Shown: positions 52,124-59,665 of the stretch, piece by piece
How positions within the stretch are numbered: position 1 is the first letter of the stretch
How the letters are laid out: every line of letters begins with the position of its first letter
DNA from: Chloroflexota bacterium
GTDB lineage: Bacteria; Chloroflexota; Dehalococcoidia; Bin125
Direction: 5' to 3'
Assembly (NCBI GenBank): GCA_003228175.2
Contig: QGNQ01000007.1
Coordinates: 1 to 64,000 of the forward strand
Length of the DNA: 64,000 bases
Notes under the pieces: generated by a model
Databases searched by the model: none
The model's input: only the letters and a program-made list of their open reading frames with translations
Told to the model about the DNA's origin: nothing
Position numbers and translations under genes: made by a program

Positions 52124-52690
52124 ATGCCGTCACGAGGGATTCCGCAGTCCTTCTGGCTGATTTTTGTCTTCGGGTTGCTCGCCGCCGGGATCATCTCCCT
52201 GGCCGGCTTCGCAATCGATAAGGCCGACAGAAAAGACGCCAACGTCGCCCTGGCCGGAGCGGAAGCCGCCGTCCTCGCGCAGCTCGATTCCGGACGCATC
52301 ACGCTCGCCGACCTGGACCCGACTGACCCGGTCCGCGTCCGTCTCGAAGAGGAGGGCGCGGAGGTGCCCGAGGAAGAGCAACCGCCCGCGGAAGAAGAGC
52401 AGCCGCCCGCCGAACTCCAGCCCGGCGACGCCGACCGTGGCCAGCAGGTCTTCTTCCAAAACGGCTGTAGCGCCTGCCACGGCGACACCGGTCAGGGCGG
52501 CATCGGCCCCACCCTCGCCCTGACCAGCTTGACCGTGGAGCAAGTGCTGCAGCAATACCGCAGCCCGCGCGGCTTCATGCCCGCCTTCGGGCCAGACGCC
52601 GTCAGCGATCAGGAAGTCGCCGACGTCCGCGCCTGGCTGCAGACCCTGCCCCTGCCCGACACCATTGTGCCCGGTGAGGGCACGCCCTAG
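52124..52690 (+). CDS. membrane-anchored c-type cytochrome
   Basis: The 188-residue protein has an N-terminal transmembrane anchor (about 9-30), an acidic linker with a perfect 7-residue repeat (EEEQPPA twice, 83-96) and a single class-I cytochrome c domain. Heme attachment is CSACH (Cys115, Cys118, His119), and Met152 in GFMPAFG is the likely axial ligand. It should face the outside of the membrane and carry electrons. Its TAG stop overlaps that of the selenoprotein candidate on the other strand. Confidence 0.9.
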   Translation: MPSRGIPQSFWLIFVFGLLAAGIISLAGFAIDKADRKDANVALAGAEAAVLAQLDSGRITLADLDPTDPVRVRLEEEGAEVPEEEQPPAEEEQPPAELQPGDADRGQQVFFQNGCSACHGDTGQGGIGPTLALTSLTVEQVLQQYRSPRGFMPAFGPDAVSDQEVADVRAWLQTLPLPDTIVPGEGTP

Positions 52691-52929
52691 CCGCCCCCAG
52701 CCCCATCCAGCAGCGCCTCCAGGCGGTCCGGGTCGTACCCCTCCACCACGTCCTCCCCAATCTCCACGACCGGTGGCAGGCGCCAGCCGCGCGCACGGAA
52801 CGCCTCCGCCGCGTCCCGATCCGCACCCACACGTCGGAGGTCGTAGGTCACCGCGCGCTCGTCAAGAAACTTCTTGACCACCCGGCACGCGCTTCAACGC
52901 TCATGTGACCACAGCACCACATCGCTCAC
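52687..52929 (-). CDS. glutaredoxin-like candidate selenoprotein (in-frame TGA as Sec)
   Basis: Read through the TGA at 52894-52896, the 80-residue product is a glutaredoxin-type protein: VVLWSHER-U-SAC (redox site UxxC, with Sec12 and Cys15), VVKKFLDERAVTYDLRR, cis-Pro loop LPPVV and a C-terminal VVEGYDPDRLEALL typical of this family. Reading downstream from GTG 52881 gives 64 residues without the redox site. The GTG start (52929) overlaps the upstream DinB stop by 4 bases (GTGA). A hairpin at 52861-52878 resembles a bacterial SECIS. Ala codons are nearly all GCG, as in its - strand neighbours, on both sides of the TGA. Alternatives: a Cys-to-stop mutation or a sequencing error. No sel genes are in the window. 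Confidence 0.75.
52861..52878 (-). promoter_or_regulatory. SECIS-like hairpin after the in-frame TGA
   Basis: On the - strand GTCAAGA-AGTT-TCTTGAC forms a 7-bp perfect stem with an AGTT loop, or 8 bp with a GT loop. It starts 15 nt after the TGA; the loop G is about 23 nt away, within the range described for bacterial SECIS elements. G is the second loop base, as expected. The typical bulged U is not obvious. Confidence 0.55.
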
Positions 52930-53480
52930 CCCGCGCCCGCCGCATTCACCGCCTGGCTCACCGCAGCGCGCGCCCGCGCCAGCAAATCCTCGGCGCCTGC
53001 CCAGTTCGGCTCGACGCCCGCCCGCATCCGCGCCAGCCGATCCGCGTCCGCCAGCTCCGCCAGCGCCACATGCGTCAGCGCCTCTCCCAGCGAACGTCCC
53101 TCCGCCACCGCCGACCGCGACACATGCGCTCGATCGAGCGCTGCCGCGTCCGTCGCCATCAGCAGCTCCTCCGTCACCGCGCGGTGCCGCACCAGGCCAT
53201 AGAGCACCTCCACCAGCGTCGGCGTCGCGGGAAGCGCCGGCGCTTCCATCTCAGCCGGCCAGAGCCAGTGCCACTCGCGATCCCAGGCCCCCCGCGCGAT
53301 TGCCCCCGGGGCCTCCCCCCCCTCCGGCCAGAGTCGCCCCTCCGGCAGCCCCACGAGTGTTTGGGTCAGCGTCCGTCGCACCGCGAAGATCGCGAACGCC
53401 AGCGCCTCAAGACGACTCTCCGGTGGCTCCCACGCGTCGAACGACGCCGGCCCAGACGGGGAGACGGAGTGGTCCGCCAC
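52926..53480 (-). CDS. DinB-like four-helix protein
   Basis: The 184-residue, mostly helical protein resembles DinB-superfamily members: an N-terminal helix (LEALAFAIFAVRRTLTQTLVGLPEGRLW), a central RHRAVTEELLM and a C-terminal LTHVALAELADADRLARM. These superfamily proteins are metal-dependent thiol-related enzymes or transferases. The expected three metal-ligand histidines are not all evident, so the call is tentative. The stop overlaps the start of the glutaredoxin-like selenoprotein candidate, coupling the two; dapA is 22 bases upstream. Confidence 0.6.
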   Translation of the reverse strand: MADHSVSPSGPASFDAWEPPESRLEALAFAIFAVRRTLTQTLVGLPEGRLWPEGGEAPGAIARGAWDREWHWLWPAEMEAPALPATPTLVEVLYGLVRHRAVTEELLMATDAAALDRAHVSRSAVAEGRSLGEALTHVALAELADADRLARMRAGVEPNWAGAEDLLARARAAVSQAVNAAGAG

Positions 53481-56639: not shown

Positions 56640-56665
56640 GCCCTAGTGGTTCGCCCTAGTGGTTC
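56640..56665. repeat. 13-bp tandem duplication across the pnp stop
   Basis: GCCCTAGTGGTTC occurs twice with no gap. The pnp stop (56656-56658) lies in the second copy; the first copy duplicates the last codons and the stop downstream. Confidence 0.8.
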
Positions 56666-59499
56666 GCCGGCGCGCCAAAGTCAGGGCGCGGCGGCGGCGG
56701 CGGTCCCGGCGGCTCGTCCGAACCGGCCCCGAAGCGCCGATCCCGAGTGAAGCCCATCCGCTGTCGGCTCCGGCTACCTGAGTCCGTCGAGTCCGGCTGG
56801 CGCTCGGGGCGCTCGGGGCGCTCGGCGGGTGCAGACTCGCTGCTGCCACCACCACCACCACCACCCTCTCCGCTGCGACGACGGCGGCGCCGGCGCCGGG
56901 GCGCCTCGCCCTCACCTGAGCTCTCACCCTCGCCACCACCGGAACGGCCGGCCGGCGCGGACTCGCGGCCCCCGCCACCATCCTGGTTCCGTCCTCGGCT
57001 CGGTTGGTCGCGGGCGGCTTCACGACCGGAATCGCTGCGGCCCCCGGCCCGGTCGGCGCCGCGTGGCCGGTCCCCGTCGCCGCCGCGCGGGCGGTCCCCG
57101 TCGCCGCCGCGCGGGCGGTCCCCGTCGGCGTCACGCGGGCGTTCCCGATCGCCGCCGCGCGGGCGATCCCCGTCGGCGTCACGCGGCCGATCCCCGTCGG
57201 AGCCGCGCGGGCGTTCCCGATCGCCACCGCGCGGGCGATCCCCGTCGGCGCTGCGCGGGCGATCCCCGTCGCCGTCACCGCGGCCACCGCGGTCGCTGCG
57301 GCCGCGCGGACCCCGATCATCATCTCGACCGCCGCGCCCGCCGCGGGGGCCTCCGGCGCCACCACCAGCGCCACGACTCCCGCGATCCCCGCCGGACTCG
57401 CCGCCCCCGCCACCACTGCCGCCGCCGCTCAGCAGCGCCCGGCGCGAGGCGTTGATCCGACCCAAGTTATCGATCTCCGTGACGAGAACCTCAATCTCGT
57501 CACCCAGCTTGACCACGTCCTCCACCGCCGGCACGTGATAGTCCGCCAGCTCAGAGATGTGCACCAGCGCGTCCTTGCCCGGCAGAATCTCCACGAAGGC
57601 GCCGAACGGCAGAATACGAGTCACCTTGCCCGTGTACTTCTCGCCCCGTTCCACCTCCTTGGTCAGCGACTTGATGGCGTTGATCGCCTTCTCCGCCGAC
57701 TCCAAATCGACCGCGGTCACGTAGACAGAACCATCGTCTTGGATGTCGATCCCCGCGCCGGAGTCCGCCTCCAGCGCGCGAATCGTCTTGCCGCCGGGGC
57801 CAATGATCGCCCCGATCTTCTCCTGCGGCACCTCCACCCGATGCATCCGCGGCGCGTAGGGCGACATCTCCTCGCGCGGCGCCGCAATGGTGTCGACGAT
57901 CACGTCGATGATTTGCAGACGCGCGTCCTTCGCCTGCTCCAGCGCCTCCTCCATGATCGACAGCTCAATGCCGCGCACCTTGATGTCCATCTGCAGGGCC
58001 GTCACGCCATCCCGGCTCCCGGCCACCTTGAAGTCCATGTCACCCAGGTGATCTTCGAGCCCGGCGATGTCCGTCAGCACCGCGAAATCGTCCGCGGCCT
58101 CGCCCTTGATCAAGCCCATCGCAATACCCGCGATCGGCTTCTTGATCGGCACGCCCGCGTCCATCATCGAAAGCACGCCCGCGCAGACGCTCGCCATCGA
58201 CGTACTCCCGTTCGACGAGAGCACCTCGGAGACAATCCGAATCGTGTACGGGAAGTCCTCTTTGTCCGGCAGAATGCTGGCCATCGCCCGCTCGCCCAGC
58301 ATGCCATGCCCGATCTCACGCCGGCCCGACGAGCCAATCCGGCCCGTCTCCCCCACCGAGTAGGGCGGGAAGTTGTAGTGGTGCATGAACGTCTTGCTGT
58401 CCTCAGGCGTGAGGTCATCCAAGCGCTGCGCCATCCCCGTCCCCGCCAGCGTCGTCAGCGAGAGCACCTGCGTCTCGCCCCGCTGGAACAGGCCGGAGCC
58501 ATGGGTGCGCGGAATCATGCCCACGCTGCCCGACAGCGGCCGCAAGTCCCGCGTCCCTCGGCCATCCGGGCGGGCGCCGTTCTCCAGAATCTCGTACCGC
58601 ACTGCGCGCTTCTCAATCGCGTCGAAGGCCGCGCCTAAGTTCTCTTCCGCGTCGCCCTCTTTGCCGTCCAACAGCCCCGCGCGCAGCGCATTGCGCTTCT
58701 CGTCGCGCTCCGCCTTGGTCAGCCCCGACGACGGCGACAGCACCGCCACCAACTCGTCGCCGATCGCACCATCGGCCTCCTCCAGCGCGTCCGCGTCGAC
58801 CGCCCGGGGCGTGAAGGCCCGCTTCGGCTTCGCCAGCTCCAGCATCTGCTCTTGCAGCGCCACGATCTCCGAGATCGCCTCCTGGCCCAGCGCCATCGCG
58901 TCCACCAGCAACGACTCCGGCACCTCGCCGGCCTCCGCCTCAACCATCATGATCGCGTCTTTGGTACCCGCCACCACCAGGTTGAGATCGCCGTTCTTGA
59001 GATCCTCCCAGGTCGGCTGCAGAACCAGCTTCCCGTCCACATGGCCAATCCGCACCGACGCCACCGGACCGTCGAACGGCACATCGGAGATCGTCAACGC
59101 CGCGCTCGCCGCAATCGTGCCCAGCGTGTCGATCGGCGTCTCCATGTCAGTCGAGAGCACCGTGATCACGATCTGCGTGTCGTCCATGTAGCCCTTGGGG
59201 AAGAGCGGACGCAGCGGTCGGTCCGTCAGCCGCGCCGACAGGATCGCCGCCGTCGTCGGCCGGCCCTCGCGGCGGAAGAACGAGCCCGGGATGCGTCCCG
59301 CCGCGTACAACCGCTCCTCAAATTCAACCGAAAGCGGGAAAAAGTCGATCCCCTTCCGCGGGCTGCTGGCCGTCACCGTCGCCAGCAGCATCGTGTCGCC
59401 GTAGCGCAGCGTCACCGCGCCGCCCGCTTGCTGTGCCAGCGAGCCCGTCTCCACGACCAGCGATCGCCCGGCCAGCTCCATCTCATACGAATGCGTCAT
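56656..59499 (-). CDS. pnp: polyribonucleotide nucleotidyltransferase with long RG/RD-rich tail
   Basis: PNPase degrades RNA 3' to 5' phosphorolytically. Residues 1 to about 560 form two RNase PH-like domains (MELAGRSLVVETGSLAQQAGG, FEERLYAAGRIPGSFFRREGRP, GRREIGHGMLGERAM). A KH domain (VEVPQEKIGAIIGPGGKTIRALE) and an S1 domain (GKVTRILPFGAFVEILPGKDALVHISE) follow. Normal PNPases end near 700-720. Here a tail of about 240 residues follows, very rich in Gly, Arg, Asp and Ser, including nine 8-residue DGDRPRGG-like repeats and a poly-Arg/Gly stretch. The tail may bind RNA or partners. ATG 59499 gives the canonical N-terminus. It is downstream of rpsO. Confidence 0.95.
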   Translation of the reverse strand: MTHSYEMELAGRSLVVETGSLAQQAGGAVTLRYGDTMLLATVTASSPRKGIDFFPLSVEFEERLYAAGRIPGSFFRREGRPTTAAILSARLTDRPLRPLFPKGYMDDTQIVITVLSTDMETPIDTLGTIAASAALTISDVPFDGPVASVRIGHVDGKLVLQPTWEDLKNGDLNLVVAGTKDAIMMVEAEAGEVPESLLVDAMALGQEAISEIVALQEQMLELAKPKRAFTPRAVDADALEEADGAIGDELVAVLSPSSGLTKAERDEKRNALRAGLLDGKEGDAEENLGAAFDAIEKRAVRYEILENGARPDGRGTRDLRPLSGSVGMIPRTHGSGLFQRGETQVLSLTTLAGTGMAQRLDDLTPEDSKTFMHHYNFPPYSVGETGRIGSSGRREIGHGMLGERAMASILPDKEDFPYTIRIVSEVLSSNGSTSMASVCAGVLSMMDAGVPIKKPIAGIAMGLIKGEAADDFAVLTDIAGLEDHLGDMDFKVAGSRDGVTALQMDIKVRGIELSIMEEALEQAKDARLQIIDVIVDTIAAPREEMSPYAPRMHRVEVPQEKIGAIIGPGGKTIRALEADSGAGIDIQDDGSVYVTAVDLESAEKAINAIKSLTKEVERGEKYTGKVTRILPFGAFVEILPGKDALVHISELADYHVPAVEDVVKLGDEIEVLVTEIDNLGRINASRRALLSGGGSGGGGGESGGDRGSRGAGGGAGGPRGGRGGRDDDRGPRGRSDRGGRGDGDGDRPRSADGDRPRGGDRERPRGSDGDRPRDADGDRPRGGDRERPRDADGDRPRGGDGDRPRGGDGDRPRGADRAGGRSDSGREAARDQPSRGRNQDGGGGRESAPAGRSGGGEGESSGEGEAPRRRRRRRRSGEGGGGGGGSSESAPAERPERPERQPDSTDSGSRSRQRMGFTRDRRFGAGSDEPPGPPPPPRPDFGAPANH
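57055..57270 (-). repeat. 24-bp tandem repeat in the pnp tail (nine units)
   Basis: Nine 24-bp units encode octapeptides such as DGDRPRSA, DGDRPRGG, DRERPRGS and DGDRPRDA, beginning at about residue 744. The variation between units is at codon positions that preserve RPR. Confidence 0.9.
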
Positions 59500-59665
59500 G
59501 CGTTCCCGTGTTCCTCTTCCTGTGCCCGGATTGCATCGTCGGGTCACGTGGGTCGGGCGCCAGCGTCCTTCGCCGGTCTCTCCCGTGTGGGCCGGGGCGA
59601 CATTTCTCGCGCCCGTGCCGCTGCTCTCGCGTCGTCTCGTTCTGACGCGTATAGCCAAATCTGAT

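Follow-up and report, generated by a model that had tools for sequence, protein, structure and literature searches.

The minus-strand frame at 52687-52929 of the window (by which we mean the whole stretch of 64,000 nucleotides of Chloroflexota DNA that was analysed) is, as judged from its sequence, almost certainly a genuine selenoprotein gene, in which a selenocysteine inserted by SelB at residue 12 would complete a glutaredoxin with a USAC active site. This reading is based on an open frame, on conservation at both sides of an in-frame TGA, on the presence of the machinery genes, on pair changes in a hairpin, on the alternation of Sec and Cys among homologues and on the predicted fold. With the TGA read as U, the frame encodes 80 residues, VSDVVLWSHERUSACRVVKKFLDERAVTYDLRRVGADRDAAEAFRARGWRLPPVVEIGEDVVEGYDPDRLEALLDGAGGG. 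The features of the locus are collected in Table 1.

Table 1. Features of the Sec-glutaredoxin locus (positions in the window)
Feature	Position	Strand	Remarks
Sec-glutaredoxin gene (predicted), 80 aa	52687..52929	-	GTG start, TAG stop, single in-frame TGA
UGA codon, candidate Sec, first residue of U-S-A-C	52894..52896	-	TGA in 12/12 close-clade members
bSECIS-like hairpin GUCAAGA-AGUU-UCUUGAC	52861..52878	-	7 bp, loop 52868-52871, 22 nt past the UGA
Stop of the upstream ORF and start of the glutaredoxin, overlapping as GTGA	52926..52929	-	TGATG in relative L002
184-aa ORF upstream of the glutaredoxin	52926..53480	-	helical bundle, weak DinB/YfiT-like fold matches

The TGA is shared by the nearest relatives of the gene. 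Among the matches listed in a family-profile search of 393 genomes of the class, its own genome included, 12 members scoring at least 91 bits form a close clade, and each of them (our gene and 11 others) contains one TGA, located at the active-site codon. Five of the 12 (G001, G181, G313, G322 and G342) are relatives labelled as Chloroflexi, Chloroflexota or Dehalococcoidia MAGs, with the TGA at the same codon in 5/5. The clade has the motif R-U-S/A-x-C-R-V-V, and the next-best match among those listed, at 67.9 bits, is a Cys protein with HCAAC (G043). Indeed, more distant homologues carry either Cys or TGA at the Sec codon, for example HCAAC in L041 and HCAPC in L068, and such Cys forms are found outside the close clade only. 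The first-pass annotation had proposed an alignment of homologues as a check: in those with an aligned redox site that were read residue by residue, the position is occupied by Cys or by TGA, and none has neither. L036 (G003), the alignment of which stops short of the redox site, was dropped. A tree of 41 homologues groups the 12 in a clade composed of Sec forms alone (support 98/94), the others being a mixture of Sec and Cys; this tree is built on few columns, and the branch of G121 is long. These 41 rows were drawn from the 51 homologues scored for the hairpin, leaving out G011, G014, G025, G039, G041b, G059, G059b, G099, G100 and G188.

The hairpin that follows the UGA has, taken alone, a folding energy of -8.6 kcal/mol. 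According to the available part of PMC13188914, the bacterial SECIS model has a loop of 3-9 nt, an upper stem of 4-16 bp, a spacing of 16-37 nt, a G within the first two loop positions and an MFE <= -7.5 kcal/mol, and the hairpin agrees with all of these constraints (7 bp, AGUU, 22 nt, -8.6 kcal/mol). Folded by itself, the 76-nt window sequence is unremarkable (z -1.07), and it is the comparison between homologues that argues for the hairpin. A stem of at least 5 bp at the hairpin's place, defined by five allowed loop registers, was observed in 27/30 Sec homologues and in 0/21 Cys homologues, the best Cys form reaching 3 bp. When stems of at least 7 bp were counted anywhere within 48 nt, the proportions were 28/30 and 1/21, respectively. 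The Cys exception (G025) has an 8-bp hairpin elsewhere than at the common place. As for the Sec exceptions, the stem of G121, of 7 bp with a 6-nt loop, is shifted out of register by one base, and a different 7-bp hairpin, closer to the UGA, occurs in G047 and G074 (L027 and L078; UTAC/UMSC). In G090 the hairpin has 5 bp, with -4.9 kcal/mol for its 20-nt core.

Within the close clade the pairs are altered on both sides, from C-G to G-C or G-U and from A-U to G-C, as scored by ungapped counts rather than by RNAalifold; with the latter, run on 9 sequences, the covariation term was small (-0.22) and L018 was shifted by one base. Most of the 18 Sec forms outside the close clade have an 8-bp version of the hairpin. 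Of 100,000 synonymous recodings of the window peptide, drawn with local usage, 124 had at least 7 bp where the hairpin lies, and 32 of 5,000 had at least 7 bp anywhere. Furthermore, the hairpin includes the codons TTT and CTT; in six window genes, TTT represents 8/62 Phe codons and CTT 6/205 Leu codons. Rfam gave two matches close to the gene (AS-pc02 and MIR5534), which stayed below gathering scores and which we regard as chance.

Could the TGA be an error of sequencing or assembly for TGC or TGT, in an ordinary CxxC glutaredoxin? A Cys codon is only one base away and Cys homologues do exist, but the 11 other members of the close clade, which come from other genomes, all carry TGA at this position. 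Furthermore, the 21 Cys homologues tested have no hairpin at the common place, whereas the present gene has one, and we give such an error next to no credit.

That the frame is a selenoprotein gene is also argued by what lies ahead of the TGA. The mechanical ORF list gives in this frame just a 64-aa ORF (52687-52881, from the GTG at 52881), in agreement with the earlier prediction that standard annotation would call a truncated protein of 64 residues. This ORF matches PF00462 with 26.9 bits over profile positions 14-60. The read-through protein reaches 38.5 bits over the whole profile (1-60 of 60; gathering score 22.9), and the residues ahead of the TGA are also conserved in relatives that come from different assemblies, so the read-through frame is not a product of chance. 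A pseudogene, or a true start at GTG 52881 producing the 64-aa protein, would be consistent with the ORF list and with a PF00462 score that still passes the cut-off after truncation. The conservation of the pre-TGA residues stands against it, and so does the comparison with G001, in which the 80 codon pairs (stop included) divide into 40 identical, 20 synonymous and 20 other, with the frame kept. Moreover, a redoxin deprived of its first strand and of its redox pair would have no plausible activity. We thus hold a pseudogene or a truncated protein to be highly improbable. Both the TGA-interrupted minus-strand frame with U-S-A-C, here an 80-residue glutaredoxin with its TGA at 52896-52894, and the coupling of its start to the preceding gene, which the first-pass annotation had put forward, were borne out: the GTG at 52929-52927 and the TGA with which the 184-aa ORF ends (52928-52926) overlap as GTGA. 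The same junction reads TGATG in L002, and the two genes are presumably co-transcribed.

The predicted structure is that of a glutaredoxin. An AlphaFold model, computed with Cys in place of Sec, has a mean pLDDT of 89.9 and the order strand-helix-strand-helix-strand-strand-helix, and in it U12-S-A-C15 stands at the start of helix 1 of a thioredoxin-like fold, U12 coming just ahead of the helix (residues 13-24). Used as a query, this model retrieved 7c10 as the top PDB match by fold (TM 0.87, 32% identity), and 7c10 is also the top PDB match by family profile (73.5 bits).

The genome, an assembly of 76 contigs that is 84.7% complete, contains the genes expected for selenocysteine use, the search for which had been proposed together with the initial claim: selA, selB and selD are all present, together with a tRNA-Sec gene that is interrupted by the end of a contig. 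selA scores 444.5 bits, over its cut-off; selB scores 319 bits for a cut-off of 242 and has a long open frame; selD scores 358 bits and has one TGA, in the frame TCGG-U-ASK-YGP. This selD (L054, contig C8:27124-28056), with its in-frame TGA in TCGG-U-ASK, is itself likely a selenoprotein gene, and it fits the SelD motif UxxK given in the available text of PMC9312934. The tRNA-Sec gene occupies the first positions of contig C61 (L045:1-83), the edge of which removes its 5′ end. Infernal aligns it to model positions 13-91, with the anticodon loop CUUCAAA, at 45.6 bits, just below the gathering score of 47; ARAGORN made no call on this gene. By itself the tRNA-Sec model is weak, non-specific evidence here, because two other tRNAs of the genome, called Ser and Gly by ARAGORN, score slightly above the cut-off (48 and 47.6) and because all of the control genomes (14/14) have a match. 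The tRNA is identified by its UCA anticodon and by the cmscan output, in which tRNA-Sec is the sole family at this position; cmscan keeps just the best family per clan.

Near-cognate tRNA read-through of the UGA, or its genome-wide reassignment, is scarcely credible: we found no point supporting either, the upstream ORF terminates in TGA, the Sec machinery is present, and the hairpin stands where bSECIS elements sit. We thus considered and rejected all three alternatives, namely a sequencing error, a pseudogene and a general reassignment of UGA. The reading initially proposed, a Sec in the U-S-A-C of a glutaredoxin-type protein, is supported by the machinery, by the TGA common to the clade (12/12) and by the conserved bSECIS-like hairpin.

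The distribution of selA in the class agrees with a selenoprotein gene. With p-values that serve as guides only, the genomes being related, selA (E <= 1e-20) was found in 12/12 close-clade genomes against 256/393 class genomes (chance of 12/12, 0.005), and in 63/69 genomes with a TGA-bearing glutaredoxin match against 34/62 without (p=2e-6), a count in which the TGA may lie anywhere in the match, its placement at the active site being established for a minority of rows. This second comparison covers 131 genomes: a glutaredoxin match occurs in 146 genomes, the matches are listed for 132 of these, and G306 (TAA) was left out. The matches of G048 and G326 begin just past the redox site, where a TGA is found (UHSC and UFTC, respectively), and they were counted as TGA-bearing. 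Six genomes (G034, G047, G059, G295, G325 and G340) have a TGA-bearing match and no selA at E 1e-20. Four of them are 71-89% complete; the two others, G059 (L043) and G340, are 94% complete, and both have the TGA at the active site (UPYC). These six cases may reflect missing contigs or another story.

The class contains further TGA-bearing glutaredoxins (L022, L025-L031, L043, L069, L071, L073, L076-L079, L081, L083 and L104-L106), of the UPYC, UPHC, UMFC, UTAC, UHSC, UFTC and other types, Sec and Cys being mixed in the tree. Most of those scored for a stem have an 8-bp hairpin.

How would the protein be made and how would it work? SelB, with Sec-tRNA(Sec), would be recruited by the hairpin just 3′ of the UGA and would deliver Sec at residue 12, giving a complete 80-residue redoxin of glutaredoxin fold whose active site is U-S-A-C. 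If the protein acts like cGrx1, the U12 selenolate would then attack a disulfide and Cys15 would resolve the intermediate. We infer both the insertion of Sec in the cell and these catalytic roles of U12 and C15.

The source of electrons is a second issue. Glutathione use is doubtful, because no GCS2-family gene, the one family searched in this respect, was found in the incomplete genome. Thioredoxin reductase is above the cut-off in 8/12 close-clade genomes and below it in G002 and G342; at E 1e-30 there is none in the genome of the window (G000), where weak matches of up to 39.9 bits occur, or in G001. In G090 (L099), trxA-trxB lies ~4 kb from the glutaredoxin gene. The absence of a GCS2 match, the distribution of thioredoxin reductase and the trxB/trxA neighbourhood in G090 suggest that the electrons would come from a thioredoxin-reductase-type or other flavoprotein system rather than from glutathione. 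The other PF00462 protein of the genome has CGSC.

The genes follow one another in the window in the order asd, dapA, 184-aa ORF and glutaredoxin. The pair formed by dapA and the 184-aa ORF is retained in 7/7 sister-genus loci examined (L088-L094), with asd also in L089, L092 and L093, and a glutaredoxin match occurs in 0/7 of them (flanks of ~1.5 kb); the Sec-glutaredoxin was therefore either gained at the window locus or lost in the sister loci. Elsewhere the gene is found near groEL (L100) or directly after a sigma-70 gene (L103). None of the six window neighbours tested by Pfam is a ribonucleotide reductase, and the neighbourhood gives no function for the Sec-glutaredoxin. The 184-aa ORF belongs to no Pfam or NCBIfam family, and at E 1e-5 it has matches only in the window's own family (17/393 genomes). 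The fold search with its product placed DinB/YfiT-like and other proteins on top, with E-values of 0.18 and worse; the protein weakly resembles DinB/YfiT helical bundles, which is only a lead. A bolder proposal, to which we attach little probability, is that of a Sec-obligate Chloroflexota lineage with no Cys reversion, glutathione-free and reduced by thioredoxin reductase or, where a genome has none, by another flavoprotein, the gene having been added to a lysine-pathway run beside a DinB-like putative thiol transferase, its possible partner. In the same window, a 24/72-bp tandem repeat (57048-57283) encodes the C-terminal tail of the polynucleotide phosphorylase (minus-strand ORF, 56656-59658), the tail reading as DRPRG-type repeats.

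When the window protein and three close relatives were scanned with the NCBIfam models, every score stayed below the cut-off of its model, and ordinary annotation would therefore probably truncate or miss the gene; the distant homologues L025 and L031 do exceed the YruB and Uxx-star cut-offs. The best models for the window protein are TIGR02194 (50 bits) and TIGR02196 (46.7 bits). NrdH redoxins have GFRP near the C-terminus, and the GY/GF-x-P present there in this case resembles it. However, the window protein remains under the NrdH and YruB cut-offs (85.75 for TIGR02194 and 88.55 for TIGR02196, respectively) and has Sec in place of Cys, and we rejected the NrdH label on the TIGR02194 score. 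The Uxx-star families (NF041212, NF041211 and NF041114) are, judging by their names, likewise glutaredoxin-like and may carry Sec, but the window protein scores 18.6 bits for a cut-off of 66 with NF041212 and 21.6 for 100 with NF041211, and no match to NF041114 was listed.

The closest protein of solved structure is cGrx1 of Clostridium oremlandii (7c10/7c12). According to the available text of PMC7642778, it is a native selenoprotein, the site of which is U(or C)PXC, and it is presented there as the proposed reductant of a selenoprotein MsrA and as reduced by GSH. The two proteins share the glutaredoxin fold, Sec as the first residue of UxxC and a small single domain. They differ by the site itself (U(C)PXC in cGrx1, USAC here), by VP in cGrx1 where the window protein has PP, by the R-U-S/A-x-C-R-V-V shared within the window clade, and by reduction through GSH, whereas the genome of the window yielded no GCS2-family gene.

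The kind of protein is already known, because Sec-glutaredoxins with UxxC are, in the available parts of PMC13188914 and PMC1088965, a verified or surveyed family, with which the window protein has PF00462 and UxxC in common; Grx is also listed among selenoproteins in that of PMC1794560. The latter credits Chloroflexi with 3 selenoproteins of 3 families, the names of which are not given in that portion, and neither Chloroflexi nor Chloroflexota occurs in the corresponding portion of the 2026 review (PMC13188914). In the accessible parts of the literature searched we recognised no description of the R-U-S/A-x-C-R-V-V branch. Our search of the class lists many TGA-bearing glutaredoxins, so the use of selenium in small redoxins looks common there and is perhaps under-annotated. 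The homologues, Sec or Cys and with or without the hairpin, provide a natural experiment, already at hand, on the features that a bSECIS requires. In conclusion, the window protein represents a new and well-supported, apparently Sec-only branch of the established UxxC Sec-glutaredoxins.
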